From a candidate division KSB1 bacterium (lineage in GTDB: Bacteria > Zhuqueibacterota > JdFR-76 > DREG01): 45,858 bases of DNA. Within the stretch, counting starts at the first letter, position 1. Each line of letters starts with the position of its first letter. The position numbers and the translations under genes were made by a program. Below the pieces are notes generated by a model. The model saw nothing but the letters and a program-made list of their open reading frames with translations, searched no databases and had not been told where the DNA came from. Positions 34,563-44,911 of the stretch are shown in pieces. The stretch is taken from the NCBI GenBank assembly GCA_022566355.1, contig JADFJB010000019.1:1-45858 (forward strand), in the 5' to 3' direction.

Positions 34563-34906
34563 ATATTCTCTAACCTTATTCGTCAGTTTTTCAAGGGATT
34601 ACGGCAATAATTGAACCAGGATAAAATATTTATTTTATCAGCTATTAAAATTTATTATATTATTATTTCTTGAAGAATAGTTCAACTAAACTGTACGATA
34701 ACGAACACATTCTGTAGTATCAGCGTATACTTTTCACGAAATATATTTTTGATACTTTAAGACTATCGCATGCAATCAATTTTGGTATGATTCTTGGAAT
34801 TGTATATTTCATGTAACTGTTTGTATGAATTTAACGTCTAATTGAAAATTGAATACTTTGGCTTTTTTTGTTAATATAATTTTAAAGTTTCAATAAGGAG
34901 ATGCCC
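34563..34906. other. Divergent intergenic region between regulators and efflux operon
   Basis: This 344-base AT-rich gap separates the regulator pair from the adaptor gene. It holds the candidate sigma-54 site described separately and an 11-base-apart inverted repeat TTGAA/TTCAA at 34670-34685, a weak candidate activator site. I see no open frame of interest. Confidence 0.5.
34782..34797 (+). promoter_or_regulatory. Candidate sigma-54 promoter for the efflux operon
   Basis: TTGGTATGATTCTTGGA resembles the -24/-12 consensus TGGCACG-N4-TTGCW with correct spacing, but the -12 element has GG in place of GC. It is oriented towards the adaptor gene 110 bases downstream and lies next to an NtrC-family activator gene. 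Supported mainly by context. Confidence 0.4.
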
Positions 34907-36166
34907 ATGTCAATGGATCGTCAGATAAAAAAGAAAAGATTTACTCCAAAAAGAATTATTGGTTTTGGTTTAGGCGGCCTCTTTTTTGTCGTTGTGATTT
35001 ACAATTTGGTATTTGGAGATCGAAGTTCAAAATTGAATGTAGAAATTGAGAAGATAACGATTTCCACAGTTTCCATGGGGCCTTTTGTGGAGTTTATTCC
35101 GGTAACTGGTACGGTTCTACCCATTAAGACCGTTTATTTAGATGCAATCGAGGGGGGAAGAGTAGAAAAAAAGATTATTGAAGCGGGAACGTTTGTAAAA
35201 GAAGGGGATCCTATCCTGCAATTATCGAATACCAACTTACTACTGGATATCATGTTCCGTGAAGCCGAGTTTTTTGAACAACAGAATAACTTACGCAATA
35301 CACGTTTGGAAATGGAACGTTATCGTCTTGCTCTGAAACAGCAAATGGTGGAAATTGATTATCAGATTAAACAATTGAAAAGAAGATATGGACGGGGAAC
35401 CGAATTAAGGAACCGAAATTTAATTTCCCAGGAAGAATATGATCAGTTAAAAGATGAATACGAATATAATATCAAACGAAGAGATCTAGCTTTGGTGACC
35501 TACGAACAAGATTCTGTTTTTCGCAAGGTGCAAATCGGACAGTTAGAAGCTTCCATCGATCGTATGCAGTCGAACCTGGGTATCGTTAAGAAAAAGTTAG
35601 ATAATTTAGTGGTAAAAGCCCCCATAACCGGACAGCTTACATCGTTGAATGCTGAAGTCGGAGAGTCTAAATCACCAGGACAACGATTAGGTCAGGTTGA
35701 TGTTTTGGATGGATTTAAAGTGCGCGCTAGCCCGGATGAACATTATCTTGCCCGAATAACATTGGGTCTTCCTGCCAGGTTTGATTTTGCTGGCGGAACT
35801 TATGAATTGATTACCAAAAAGATATTTCCGGAGATCCGCGATGGGCGCTTCGACATCGATTTGGAGTTTGTTGGAGTTGAGCCAAAAGGGATTCGTCGTG
35901 GACAAACCGTGCATATTCGCCTGGACTTAGGCGATCTGGATGAGGCAACGGTCCTGCTTAATAGAGGGGGATTCTGGCAAAAAACCGGTGGACAATGGGT
36001 GTATTTGGTTGATAAATCCGGAGAATTTGCAACCAAGAGAATGATCCGTTTGGGCAGGCAAAATACCCAGGTTTATGAAGTACTTGCCGGCCTTGAGCCT
36101 GGTGAAAAGGTGATTACTTCTACATATGACAGTTTTGGCGACATTGATAAGTTGATTTTGAAATGA
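34907..36166 (+). CDS. HlyD/MacA-family periplasmic adaptor (efflux)
   Basis: The protein (about 419 residues) is a membrane-fusion adaptor that would link inner-membrane permeases to an outer-membrane channel. One membrane helix lies near residues 17-37, followed by a lipoyl half (GTVLPIKTVYLDAIEGGRV), a long coiled coil (about 95-220), the second lipoyl half (VKAPITGQLTSL) and beta-barrel domains. ATG 34907 is chosen since AAGGAG lies six bases upstream; the ATG at 34901 abuts that site. Together with the ATPases and FtsX-type permeases downstream it resembles MacA. Confidence 0.88.
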   Translation: MSMDRQIKKKRFTPKRIIGFGLGGLFFVVVIYNLVFGDRSSKLNVEIEKITISTVSMGPFVEFIPVTGTVLPIKTVYLDAIEGGRVEKKIIEAGTFVKEGDPILQLSNTNLLLDIMFREAEFFEQQNNLRNTRLEMERYRLALKQQMVEIDYQIKQLKRRYGRGTELRNRNLISQEEYDQLKDEYEYNIKRRDLALVTYEQDSVFRKVQIGQLEASIDRMQSNLGIVKKKLDNLVVKAPITGQLTSLNAEVGESKSPGQRLGQVDVLDGFKVRASPDEHYLARITLGLPARFDFAGGTYELITKKIFPEIRDGRFDIDLEFVGVEPKGIRRGQTVHIRLDLGDLDEATVLLNRGGFWQKTGGQWVYLVDKSGEFATKRMIRLGRQNTQVYEVLAGLEPGEKVITSTYDSFGDIDKLILK

Positions 36167-36230
36167 CGGCAAACGGCAAACGGCAAACGGCAAACGGCAA
36201 ACGGCAAACGGCAAACGGCAAACGGCAAAC
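36166..36230 (+). repeat. Heptamer tandem array (ACGGCAA), nine copies
   Basis: Nine perfect copies of the 7-base unit ACGGCAA plus two bases begin at the last base of the adaptor stop codon. Read on the other strand the unit is TTTGCCG, the word that reappears in the array at 36702-36729 on the far side of the four-helix-bundle gene. A long minus-strand open frame across it is an artefact of the repeat. Confidence 0.95.
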
Positions 36231-36292
36231 AATAAAATATTAAAGATATGAATTTTAACATAAATAACCTATTAGATGAAAGGGGGAGTACT

Positions 36293-36649
36293 ATGTTGAA
36301 ATTAAACCATAAAAAGTTAAAGGTTTGGCAATTAAGCTTGGATTTTGTAAGTTTGATTTACCAAACGACAAGCCTTTTTCCAAAAGTAGAGATTTATGGA
36401 ATAACTAACCAATTACGGAGAGCTGCTGTTTCGCTTCCATCGAATATTGCAGAAGGTGCATCTAGAAATTCACTACAAGAAAGGAATCGCTTTTACGAAA
36501 TCGCTAGATCATCACTAGTGGAGATTGATACTCAAATAGAATTATCCAAGAGACTTGCATATTGTAAAAAAGAGGATTTGTTAGCATTGGAAGAGCAAAT
36601 GAATCATTTATTTGCAATGTTGTCTAATATGATAAAGAGGTCGAATTGA
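36293..36649 (+). CDS. Four helix bundle protein (TIGR02436 / S23-like)
   Basis: This 118-residue protein belongs to the four-helix-bundle family once called S23 ribosomal protein, also related to the Avd accessory proteins of diversity-generating retroelements. Features are LKVWQLSLDFVSLIYQTT, the conserved QLRRAAVSLPSNIAEGASR and a C-terminal helix. AGGGGGAG precedes the ATG. Function is unknown. No reverse transcriptase is nearby. Heptamer arrays in opposite orientation flank it, and it interrupts the efflux operon, so it may be an inserted cassette. Confidence 0.88.
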   Translation: MLKLNHKKLKVWQLSLDFVSLIYQTTSLFPKVEIYGITNQLRRAAVSLPSNIAEGASRNSLQERNRFYEIARSSLVEIDTQIELSKRLAYCKKEDLLALEEQMNHLFAMLSNMIKRSN

Positions 36650-36701
36650 AGCATTCAAATCCGCTACGAGGTAGCCGTCCGTTCGTCTGTTGTGTTTTTC
36701 A

Positions 36702-36729
36702 TTTCACGTTTTACGTTTGCCGTTTCACG
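36702..36729 (+). repeat. Degenerate heptamer array of form TTTNNCG
   Basis: Four consecutive 7-base units follow the pattern TTTNNCG: TTTCACG, TTTTACG, TTTGCCG and again TTTCACG. One unit is the exact reverse complement word of the array at 36166-36230. The two arrays lie on either side of the four-helix-bundle gene in inverted orientation. Confidence 0.7.
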
Positions 36730-36820
36730 TCAAATATGCCAAATTACTTATCTACAATAAGGATTAAAGTTAAAATTAAATTATTATAGTTGAATACTAA
36801 TTAAAAAAAAGGAGAAAGAA

Positions 36821-37510: not shown

Positions 37511-37562
37511 ATATTTCCGGCAACTCAATTTTGGTTCGATTATACAATTTTAGGTGACAGCT

Positions 37563-38234: not shown

Positions 38235-38283
38235 CGGTTAAAAACAATTTAAATTTAGGCGCATTTTTCAAAAGGAGATAATC

Positions 38284-39096: not shown

Positions 39097-39416
39097 GGTT
39101 TGAGGAGATGTTATTCAGAAGAATCTATTTCAATATTAAGGGGTGTTGTTTGTTAAATATATTTCCTTCGACTTTGTTCAGGATGTCGTCTTCTGAAGGA
39201 CATTTGCATATAATATCATTTCCTGCGAAATTCCTTTTTTGAAATTTTCTCTTAATCCATGGCTTCAATCCTTTTAGAACTACTCTAAAACCAATTTTAA
39301 CCTGTTCACTGGCGTACACTTGATGTAATGTCAGCGGATACTTCTTTCCCATTACTATTCATCTGAACATTAGAGTATTCCTTATAATGTATTGTGGCAT
39401 GCTTATTGTAAAAACT
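39097..39416. other. Gene-free gap before the first permease
   Basis: I see no convincing gene here. A 75-codon minus-strand frame (39125-39352) has no recognisable motif. A short inverted repeat, TCCTTC with GAAGGA near 39166-39203, could form a hairpin. The last part of the interval before the permease carries the heptamer array described separately. Confidence 0.4.
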
Positions 39417-39464
39417 CAATGACCAAAGGCTAATGGCTAATGGCCAATGAACAACAAACAATGA
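39417..39464 (+). repeat. Degenerate heptamer array (CAATGA/CTAATGG words)
   Basis: The stretch consists of near-7-base units such as CAATGAC, CTAATGG (twice), CCAATGA, ACAACAA and ACAATGA, with one unit shortened to six bases. It ends 30 bases before the first permease start and has the same period and related words as the arrays at 41895 and 42345. Confidence 0.6.
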
Positions 39465-41894: not shown

Positions 41895-41923
41895 CCATGA
41901 ACAATGAGCAAGTAAGCAATGAA
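41895..41923 (+). repeat. Degenerate heptamer array (CAATGAR)
   Basis: Units CCATGAA, CAATGAG, CAAGTAA and CAATGAA (one extra G before the last) lie between the first permease stop and the four-helix-bundle remnant. The reverse complements include TTCATTG and CTCATTG, the words of the array at 42345-42386 on the far side of that remnant. Confidence 0.6.
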
Positions 41924-41951
41924 CCTTTATAAAGGAGTGCAAGACTGAAAA

Positions 41952-42273
41952 ATTGTGATTTATGAAAAGGCTTATGAGTTTGCAATTAGAATTGTTAAGG
42001 CTTATCAGTTTTTGACTAAGGATAAAAAGGAGTTTGTATTATCAAAGTAGTTATTCAGAAGCGGTACTTCTAATTGGAGCAAATATTGCGGAAGCAAATG
42101 GTGCAATCTCAAAACCTGATATTTCTAACAAAATATTGGTTGCATCCTAGGAAAGTCTTGAATCAAAATATTGGGTGAGCTTAATGAGGGATTCTGGATT
42201 AATTGATCAAAAGACATTTGAAAGTGCTTATGAATAAACTGATCAAATTGCTAAATATTATGTTCAAATCTAA
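41952..42273 (+). pseudogene. Decayed four helix bundle protein gene
   Basis: Translation shows VIYEKAYEFAIRIVKAYQFL and LFRSGTS...IGANIAEANGA, then ESLESKYWVSLMRDSGLI, which is the TIGR02436 four-helix-bundle pattern. The frame is broken by a TAG before LFRSG (a Gln codon elsewhere in the family), a frameshift after GTS, a TAG before ESLE and a TAA further on. At least four lesions make this a true pseudogene, not a single sequencing error. It lies between permease one and permease two and is bracketed by inverted heptamer arrays. Confidence 0.75.
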
Positions 42274-42344
42274 AAAAGACAAGAATTAAGAAATCATAAT
42301 AATAACAATGAAGTACTGCATTGATTACTGACAAAAAGCAATTC

Positions 42345-42386
42345 TTCATTGTTCATTGATCATTGTTCATTGCTCATTGCTCATTG
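42345..42386 (+). repeat. Heptamer array (NTCATTG), six copies
   Basis: Six consecutive 7-base units NTCATTG, with the first base T, T, A, T, C and C, run straight into the GGAGG ribosome binding site of the second permease. It is inverted relative to the array at 41895-41923. Confidence 0.9.
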
Positions 42387-42394
42387 GAGGATGC

Positions 42395-44833
42395 ATGTTT
42401 AAGAATTATTTGAAAATATCACTTCGTAATCTTCTTCGCTACAAAGGGTACTCGCTCATAAATATAGTAGGACTGGCAATCGGAATAACTTGCACTATCA
42501 TGATTTTTCTGTTTGTACAGGATGAAATGTCATTTGACAATTTCCATACAAAATCGGATAGACTTTATCGACTGAACAAGAAAGTAACTCCCCAAACTGG
42601 TGGCACTGAATGGCATGCAATTACACCTGGATTAATGGGACCGACGATGGTGTCTGATTTCCCCGAAGTGGAGCAAAGCCTGCGTTTGCTGCCATGGTTT
42701 GATGATGTATTGATGACCCGAGGTGAAACTTCATTGAAAGTGTCAAATGTTGTTTTTGCTGATTCAAATTTCTTTGATATTTTTGATTTTCGTCTGTTAC
42801 AAGGGAATGCTAAAACTGCTCTGGTTGAGCCATTATCTATCATCTTATCAGAAAAAACAGCCGGGAAGTTTTTTGGTAATTCCGATCCTATTGGCCAGGT
42901 TATTCAAGGATTAAATGATTTATCATACAAAGTGACGGGAATTATTGAGGAAACTCCGGCCAATTCCTCATTGAGATATAATGCTTTGATCTCCTGGACT
43001 TCGACAATTCCCGGTACTGGTCCGCTCAACTGGAGTTGGTTGAATCGATGGATTACACAAGTCAACTTCACTTATTTACTATTATTTCCTGAGACCGATG
43101 TTCCTGCCTTTGAGAAAAAATTGGCTGATTTTATGGTGAAGTATATGCCAAGGCAAGCAGAATATTACAAACTGTATCTACAGCCATTGGCGGATATCTA
43201 TCTAAAATCATCACAAATTCGATTTAATGATAGTTTGTTGTTGGGTAATATTACTACTGTCTACATCTTCTCGGCCATCGCTTTGTTAACCTTACTTATT
43301 GCATGCATTAACTTCACAAATCTATCAACAGCCCGGGCCACAAAACGAGCAAGAGAAGTTGGTATTCGGAAAGTCTTGGGCGCCGAGAGAAAACAGTTAG
43401 CGAAGCAGTTTCTTGGTGAATCGATATTTTGAGTTTTTTGGCAGCAATTATTGCAATGAACTTTGTCGAGGTCATTTTACCTTATTTCAATGCGTTTGCC
43501 GGCAAATCTTTAGCATTTGATGCAATGAATAATTGGACTTTATTTTGGAGTCTGGTTTGTATTCCGGTTTTTGTCGGTACAATTTCAGGAATTTATCCGG
43601 CGCTGTTATTGTCATCCTATCGTCCAATAGCTGTTTTAAGCGGAAACACGCCAATTATTCCTTGAAACTACCTTCTTTAAAACGTGGCTCGACAAAAAGT
43701 ATAAAAAGTACAACATTCCGAAGCGGACTGGTTGTGTTTCAGTTTGGGATATCAATCATTTTGATTGCAGGTACTATCATTATTTACCAGCAAATGCAAT
43801 TTATGCAAACAAAAAAGTTAGGATTTGATAAGGAACAGATTGTTGTTTTGCCTATTGGAAATACAGAAATATCGGATCAGTACCAGGCTTTAAGAATGAA
43901 CTAATACAACATTCCAACATTTCCCACGTTGCCGGGAGTAATAGTGTTCCGGGTTTGGGAATGATGAGCTTCGGACTTCGTCCGGAAGGGAAATCGGAAG
44001 ATGAAGAATGGATCGCTTATTCGATTCGTGTGGATGATTATGATTTTCTTGGGACGTATGGACTTGAAATGACAGCAGGCCGGTATTTTTCCAGGGAATT
44101 TGCAACTGATGAAACGAACGCAGTTGTCATTAATGAATCCCTTGCAAAAAGCTTAGGCTGGAAAAATCCAGTTGGAAAGCAATTGGATATAAAAGGTGAG
44201 CTGGAGGATGGAATTGTGATAGGCGTCATCAAAGATTTTCATACAAGGTCGCTTCACCATAAGATTGAACCTTTGATCTTTTATTTTGCTCCTCGCTGGG
44301 AAAATGTTTCAGTACGAATCGCAGGGGAAAATATACCTGCTACAATTCAGTTTTTACAAAACAAATGGCAGGCATTTGAGTCGAGATATCCTTTCGAATA
44401 TTATTTCCTGGATCAAAAGTTTACTCAATTTTATGAATCCGAACAACACTTGATGAAAACATTCGGGCTTTTTTCTGCACTTGCCATTTTTATAGCGAGC
44501 TTGGGATTATTGGGTTTGGCTGCTTATACAGCTGAACAGCGGACCAAAGAAATTGGCGTACGAAAAGTCCTTGGGGCTACGGTTACCAGCATTATCATGC
44601 TGCTATCAAAGCAATTCAGTCGGCTCGTTTTGTTTGCATTTATAGTCGCTTCTCCGGTAGTCTATTTTGTAATGAATCGCTGGTTGCAGGATTTCGCCTT
44701 TAGAATTAATGTTAGCTGGTGGGTCTATGCACTGGCCGGTGGGCTGGCGTTGGTGATTGCCCTGCTTACGGTGAGCACACAAGCGATTCGGGCGGCATTG
44801 ATTAATCCGGTAGAAGCGTTGCGGTATGAGTAA
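42395..44833 (+). pseudogene. FtsX/MacB-type ABC permease, second copy, broken by three frameshifts
   Basis: The gene starts at ATG 42395 after GGAGG and reads MFKNYLKISLRNLLRYKGYSLINIVGLAIGI, a paralogue of the first permease. The frame is lost three times, each repaired by adding one base in a short run: T4 at 43427-43430, TT at 43662-43663 and AA at 43892-43893. With these repairs the protein continues through EVGIRKVLGA and the second half to the C-terminus NPVEALRYE, about 810 residues. Everything else looks normal, so either it decayed recently or the assembly under-calls runs here. The window's first permease has no such breaks. Confidence 0.82.
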
Positions 44834-44911
44834 ACTTGATTGTGGAAAGCGGTTTGGCGATTGTGGATTCACTCCGCGATATGCATTCAGAAACCCTCAT
44901 TGGAGGCATTA

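Follow-up and report, generated by a model that had tools for sequence, protein, structure and literature searches.

The 23S rRNA intervening-sequence protein (IVP, or S23p; Pfam family PF05635) is a homopentamer of four-helix bundles, and some 23S rRNA intervening sequences (IVSs) do not encode it. Short tandemly repeated repetitive (STRR) sequences are heptamer repeats of cyanobacteria. The efflux locus described here lies in a 45.9-kb stretch of DNA (45,858 nucleotides, hereafter the window) from a candidate division KSB1 bacterium, and it contains elements that can be compared with both.

The closest described system is the 23S IVS of Coxiella burnetii. It has complementary ends and an S23p/IVP open reading frame (ORF), it is excised by RNase III, and the tandem heptamers beside the ORF are present in two or three copies depending on the strain, according to the accessible sections of the report (PMC4990558). 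The elements described below resemble this IVS, as far as those sections describe it, in their complementary ends around a PF05635 ORF and in heptamers of variable copy number. In contrast to 23S IVSs, they lie between protein genes rather than in a 23S rRNA helix, and each arm consists of an entire array of a private word.

Heptamer repeats as such are already known, as the available portions of three reports make clear (PMC4692102, PMC4679880, PMC2700814). Intergenic GGGAATC heptamers of Xanthomonas form 70 convergent inverted pairs in Xcc, but they use one word per genome, and no link to a gene family is reported in the accessible text (PMC4692102). Beggiatoaceae carry TAACTGA heptamers mostly just upstream of start codons. 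These also differ in having one word, arranged as direct repeats with a single inverted case, and the excerpts available mention no IVP gene (PMC4679880). In the P6b stem of the trnL intron, heptamer units on the two sides of the stem pair with each other. Judging from the available part of that article, cyanobacterial STRR and P6b repeats are unlike the present elements in that they use few fixed words without an IVP gene, and P6b resides in a group I intron (PMC4476775). The host here is also a candidate division KSB1 bacterium rather than a cyanobacterium. The initial annotation of the window likened its arrays to STRR sequences. This likeness extends to direct repeats of seven bases, in tandem between genes, but it misses the inverted word-matched pairs around IVP genes and the common unit length of 8. 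Terminal inverted repeats are also common to insertion sequences and MITEs, but a transposase, own or related, was not found in the window elements. A search of mainly open-access literature found no published account of inverted, word-matched arrays around IVP genes in intergenic DNA.

We conclude that the period-7 arrays are mostly the ends of small insertable elements, each composed of a left array, an IVP gene and an inverted right array. We give a probability of about 0.6 to the whole reading, in which these elements are intergenic relatives of 23S rRNA IVSs with stems of slippage-prone words. This reading would assign to PF05635 genes ('four helix bundle protein') outside rRNA, in intergenic DNA, a physical unit whose ends are recognisable without sequence similarity. 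It would also join two threads, intergenic heptamer repeats and the old question of the nature and spread of 23S rRNA IVSs.

Period-7 arrays of the efflux locus

An array with CAATGA-like words had been proposed upstream of the first permease gene, at 39417-39464, and it is real. Its lag-7 identity is 30/41, a score reached in none of 2,000 Markov resamples of the gap at lag 7 and in none of 500 when all lags of 4-12 are considered. At this threshold the window holds three clusters, around 36152, 39417 and 42331. All are at lag 7, and no cluster appears at lags 4-6 or 8-12. TRF lists period-7 entries at 36166-36230, 36702-36730, 39428-39449 and 42341-42386. Most gaps of the locus had been said to carry arrays, and an array or arm is indeed present in five of eight. 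The other three are 37511-37553, 38235-38283 and 44834-44911, the last with a single CTCATTGGAGG unit. The words had also been called site-specific, but CAATGAN is common to the arrays at 39417, 41896 and 42341, and ACGGCAA to those at 36166 and 36702. CAATGAN at 42341 is on the strand opposite to that at 39417 and 41896, and the two ACGGCAA arrays likewise have opposite orientations.

Each four-helix-bundle (PF05635) gene of the locus is bracketed by two reverse-complementary arrays (Table 1). The IVP of element 1 is a relative of the solved protein XCC0516 (PDB 2gsc), and the ACGGCAA word of this element recurs on the opposite strand at 36707. When the flanks are aligned as inverted repeats, element 1 scores 30 (shuffles at most 20) and element 2 scores 24 (shuffles at most 22; 200 shuffles each). 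The predicted folds of both elements pair the left arm with the right arm, with z values of -3.39 and -2.62, and none of 100 shuffles is as stable. PF05635 is the only family found between the arms of the window elements, with no transposase. Both elements lie between protein genes and not in a 23S rRNA gene, and an rRNA search of five stretches of the same genome, three of them with other IVP sites, found none. PADLOC holds no defence-system label for the IVP.

Table 1. Coordinates of the arrays, arms and associated genes in the window
Feature	Position	Strand	Description
Membrane-fusion protein gene	34901-36166		Upstream of element 1
Element 1, left arm	36162-36237	+	ACGGCAA x9; starts at stop codon of upstream gene
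Element 1, IVP gene	36248-36649	+	PF05635, E 9e-34; TIGR02436 'four helix bundle protein'
Element 1, right arm	36696-36731	-	Inverted array ACGTGAA ACGGCAA ACGTAAA ACGTGAA (read on -)
Array	39417-39464	+	Degenerate CAATGAN/TAATGGC heptamers, 5' of permease 1, without adjoining IVP gene
Element 2, left arm	41896-41924	+	Weak CAATGAN units; 3 nt past permease 1 stop
Element 2, decayed IVP gene	41947-42255	+	PF05635, 46.2 bits across four in-frame stops
Element 2, right arm	42341-42388	-	Inverted CAATGAN array entering GGAGG of permease 2

An array at 42345-42386 had been described as touching the GGAGG of permease 2, and this contact is borne out. The array extends over 42341-42388, the GGAGG occupies 42386-42390 and the ATG follows at 42395. 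Permease 2 (42395-44833) is not one continuous ORF but three, each in a different frame (42356-43432, 43533-43904 and 43955-44833), which reflects either a decaying gene or sequence errors.

IVP sites and junctions in other genomes

PF05635 matches 21 stretches of the host genome, taken as 17 sites, and is present in 35 of 39 genomes of relatives. Inverted flanks score above all 200 shuffles at seven of the 17 host sites, and the other ten fail to beat their shuffles. Among the sites from relatives within the phylum (40 fetched, 38 usable), own arms have a mean score of 21.5, versus 12.7 for mismatched pairs. We also examined 80 named loci, the best matches to a motif of canonical IVPs, from Bacteroidota, Acidobacteria, Gemmatimonadota, Nitrospirota, Proteobacteria, Planctomycetes, Firmicutes, candidate phyla and one archaeal bin. 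Own flanks of the 77 usable loci average 25.2 versus 12.5 for mismatched flanks. The highest mean in 10,000 permutations is 14.6, and 63 of the 77 reach or exceed the 95th percentile of mismatched pairs. A flank score of at least 18 is found at 63/77 IVP loci versus 5/74 control ORFs of 100-200 amino acids, all taken from the window's own genome. Some high own-flank scores come from coding-like sequence rather than tandem arms (for example, L166, L193 and L194). Repeat words differ between elements, such that each word is private to its element and common to both of its arms.

Arrays are concentrated near IVP genes. Within 260 bp, the three sets contain 1.58, 1.73 and 2.28 arrays per kb, versus 0.19, 0.10 and 0.27 further out, an 8- to 17-fold difference relative to far flanks that may contain other elements. 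At least one array is found at 10/17 sites of the host genome, 22/40 sites of relatives and 57/80 named loci. One locus carries two names (L208 and L120); it is double-counted in the pooled density and polarity counts and counted once in each arm-matching set. The unit length near IVP genes is 7 in 98 arrays, 8 in 35, 6 in five, 9 in three and 4 in one. A fixed length of 7, as originally suggested, does not extend to the whole genome, which also has lag-8 arrays and four-helix-bundle sites with units of 6 or 8.

The elements have a preferred position and polarity. Among the 80 named loci, the IVP gene is codirectional with both neighbours in 52 and with the upstream neighbour in 66. At 51 of the 52 loci with a placed left arm, no more than 30 nt separate the arm's start from the upstream stop codon. 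The median start is 3 nt before the end of this codon, in a placement search that itself began 30 nt before it. Strict tandem inverted arms occur at 56 of the 126 sites given, a set that took six of the 17 host sites, picked for visible inverted repeats or arrays. On the IVP strand, the left arm is G-rich at 51 of these 56 sites, C-rich at three and neutral at two, and the right arm is the reverse. Under a replication-strand effect, the skew of the two arms would share one sign. Stop codons are present in all three frames in 38/56 left arms (about 20 expected) and 18/56 right arms (about 11 expected). Stop-codon insulation as the sole cause of 7-8-nt units is ruled out, since ACGGCAA gives no stop.

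As genome comparisons show, the elements lie mostly inside operons, in gene direction, and can be present or absent at one junction between species. At one Winogradskyella gene junction, sampled in 60 genomes, eight carry an IVP element and 16 have both flanks without an IVP gene. Seven of these 16 have 38-49 nt between the anchors, six have 106-121 nt of other sequence, and two carry a single array with a different word. The last, L262 (G088), has an inverted array pair of about 190 bp that lacks an IVP gene, and sister species hold the full element there; the pair may be a miniature form of the element.

Across the eight filled Winogradskyella genomes, left arms measure 66-277 nt, and 52-217 nt lie before the next gene. 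All eight IVP genes have a length of 357 nt, with dN/dS of 0.03-0.31 in 27 of 28 pairs (the computable ones). These comparisons indicate that the IVP is under purifying selection while arm length varies greatly. The next gene (cysQ by eye) is open and in frame from an ATG just 3' of the IVP gene in all eight genomes (L239-L243 and L270-L272), and its product carries the in-frame translation of the right arm as an N-terminal extension. Slippage of this right array is therefore constrained by the reading frame.

A second junction, in Flavobacterium, lies between what appear by eye to be transport genes. In G113 it is empty, the two genes lying end to end, whereas G117, G201 and the genome of L179 have it filled. 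In G163 (L298), this junction holds a short heptamer stretch and two ORFs that look nucleotidyltransferase/HEPN-like by eye, possibly other cargo. No target-site duplication was seen by eye at the Winogradskyella and Flavobacterium junctions.

The window operon itself varies among relatives. G002, from the same family, has 59 bp and no IVP gene between the membrane-fusion and ATPase genes. G001 holds an IVP gene at the place of element 1, but the left word there is a different one. The two arms of this G001 element match poorly, with a score of 9, whereas the left arm of G000 scores 13 against the right arm of G001. Relatives of element 2 precede permeases in G001 and have well-matched arms, with a score of 22. 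The IVP relatives at L284 and L286 belong to this group, which precedes MacB-type permease genes at three places in the genome.

A proposed RNA stem or a possible DNA hairpin

In the reading that we prefer, the transcribed arms would pair into a long stem whose loop contains the IVP gene, as in 23S rRNA IVSs. Slippage of short units would make an arm longer or shorter while its partner is still found, and arm-to-arm templating would keep the two words matched. The putative function of the IVP would be to bind the arm structure and serve the element. We infer this pairing of the arms as RNA because the arrangement, complementary ends with an S23p/IVP ORF, is that of 23S IVSs. The polarity of the arms, the direction of the genes and their place in operons agree with such a stem. 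A G-U wobble test of arm mismatches ran the opposite way, with 108 G-U-bridgeable versus 145 non-bridgeable mismatches (p 0.02). Bridgeable mismatches are thus fewer, not more, which gives no sign of pairing kept at the RNA level, and a wobble signature was rejected as evidence. Other observations that weigh against our reading are the ten host sites that do not exceed their shuffles, the high flank scores without tandem arms, the restriction of strict arms to 56 of 126 sites, the poorly matched arms of element 1 in G001 and the solo arrays described below. The IVS-like reading predicts a stem in the transcript, binding of the IVP to its own arms and concerted arm-to-arm change.

A DNA-level hairpin with template switching is a serious rival to the RNA stem. 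The arms would then be terminal inverted repeats or hairpin/cruciform ends that are recognised by the IVP and moved by host enzymes or a reverse transcriptase acting in trans, and their likeness would arise by quasi-palindrome template switching. Presence or absence at precise junctions, the missing G-U wobble signal and the IVP-less inverted form in G088 (L262) are all compatible with such a DNA element. The IVP also resembles Avd, the accessory protein of diversity-generating retroelements (DGRs), in the sections available of one report (PMC10053308). However, there is no transposase inside the elements and no target duplication visible by eye, and a DNA transposon would not need the polarity and gene-direction bias. 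The reverse transcriptase that partners DGR Avd is also not a constant companion of the IVP. RVT_1 is matched in seven of 12 IVP-bearing genomes, including G000, and missing in G045, G040, G005, G002 and G039, and dependence on a reverse transcriptase was rejected on this basis. On balance, movement and matching at the DNA level seem rather unlikely.

Two further explanations involve no element. Neutral repeats of the cyanobacterial STRR or long-SSR kind could arise anywhere in intergenic DNA by polymerase slips of about 7 nt, which would make proximity to IVP genes incidental. Heptamers are the top class of long SSRs in many genomes in the Mrazek survey, as relayed in the accessible text of two reports (PMC4679880, PMC4692102), and the host genome has solo arrays and varying copy numbers. 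We nevertheless consider this origin improbable, as it leaves the strong enrichment at IVP genes, the arm-to-arm word matching and the opposite GC skew of the arms unexpected. A contingency function, in which slippage alters the distance to a ribosome binding site or promoter and efflux genes vary in phase, is very unlikely. The contact of the element 2 right arm with GGAGG and the difference in unit number at another CAATGAN array (below) would suit it, but in many phyla this architecture is found beside genes that are not related, the right arms of all eight Winogradskyella genomes have lengths that leave the next gene in frame, and permease 2 is broken into three ORFs.

The IVS-like reading can be taken further, in a form that we offer as possible but doubtful. 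Across bacteria, IVP genes might mark a family of largely unrecognised selfish elements that invade operons, with stop codons as insertion sites. A dedicated templated process, linked to the IVP, would generate their polar arms of private 7-8-nt words and maintain the match between them, with the word acting as the element's own address.

Solo arrays in the host genome

Arrays that stand alone, with no IVP gene beside them, are common in the host genome. CAATGAN arrays account for 35 overlapping matches on six contigs and ACGGCAA arrays for 22 matches on six contigs, and both also occur at places without an IVP gene. The initial annotation looked to lag-7 periodicity and to copy number for confirmation. 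A 400-kb sample of other contigs contains three lag-7 arrays, with none in resamples, but the signal is not exclusive to this lag: there are four arrays at lag 8 too, and one each at lags 4, 6, 9 and 14. Copy number does differ at one CAATGAN locus represented at two contig ends, with nine units at the end of C116 (L054) and four at the start of C71 (L056). The near flanks are identical, with a small difference downstream of the array. The difference probably reflects variation in copy number between strains, or else the assembly.

The array at 39417 aligns in the same orientation to CAATGAN arrays on C83 (score 31), C199 (20) and C39 (18) and to the element 2 right arm (21). Against 55 other left arms, its mean score is 8 and its highest is 17; it scores 13 with the left arm of element 2 and 17 with that of element 1. 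Because it has CAATGAN words but no IVP gene, it is probably a solo arm of an element. The arm may have lost an earlier IVP gene or may never have had one. A decayed gene under 39128-39358 (- strand) was considered and rejected, as this interval has no Pfam match up to E 1.

Solo arrays of period 8, with CTTTGTGC- and CAAAGTAA-type words, also occur in the host genome (L075:9676-9739, L079:9498-9626, L082:7387-7451 and L084:5274-5305).
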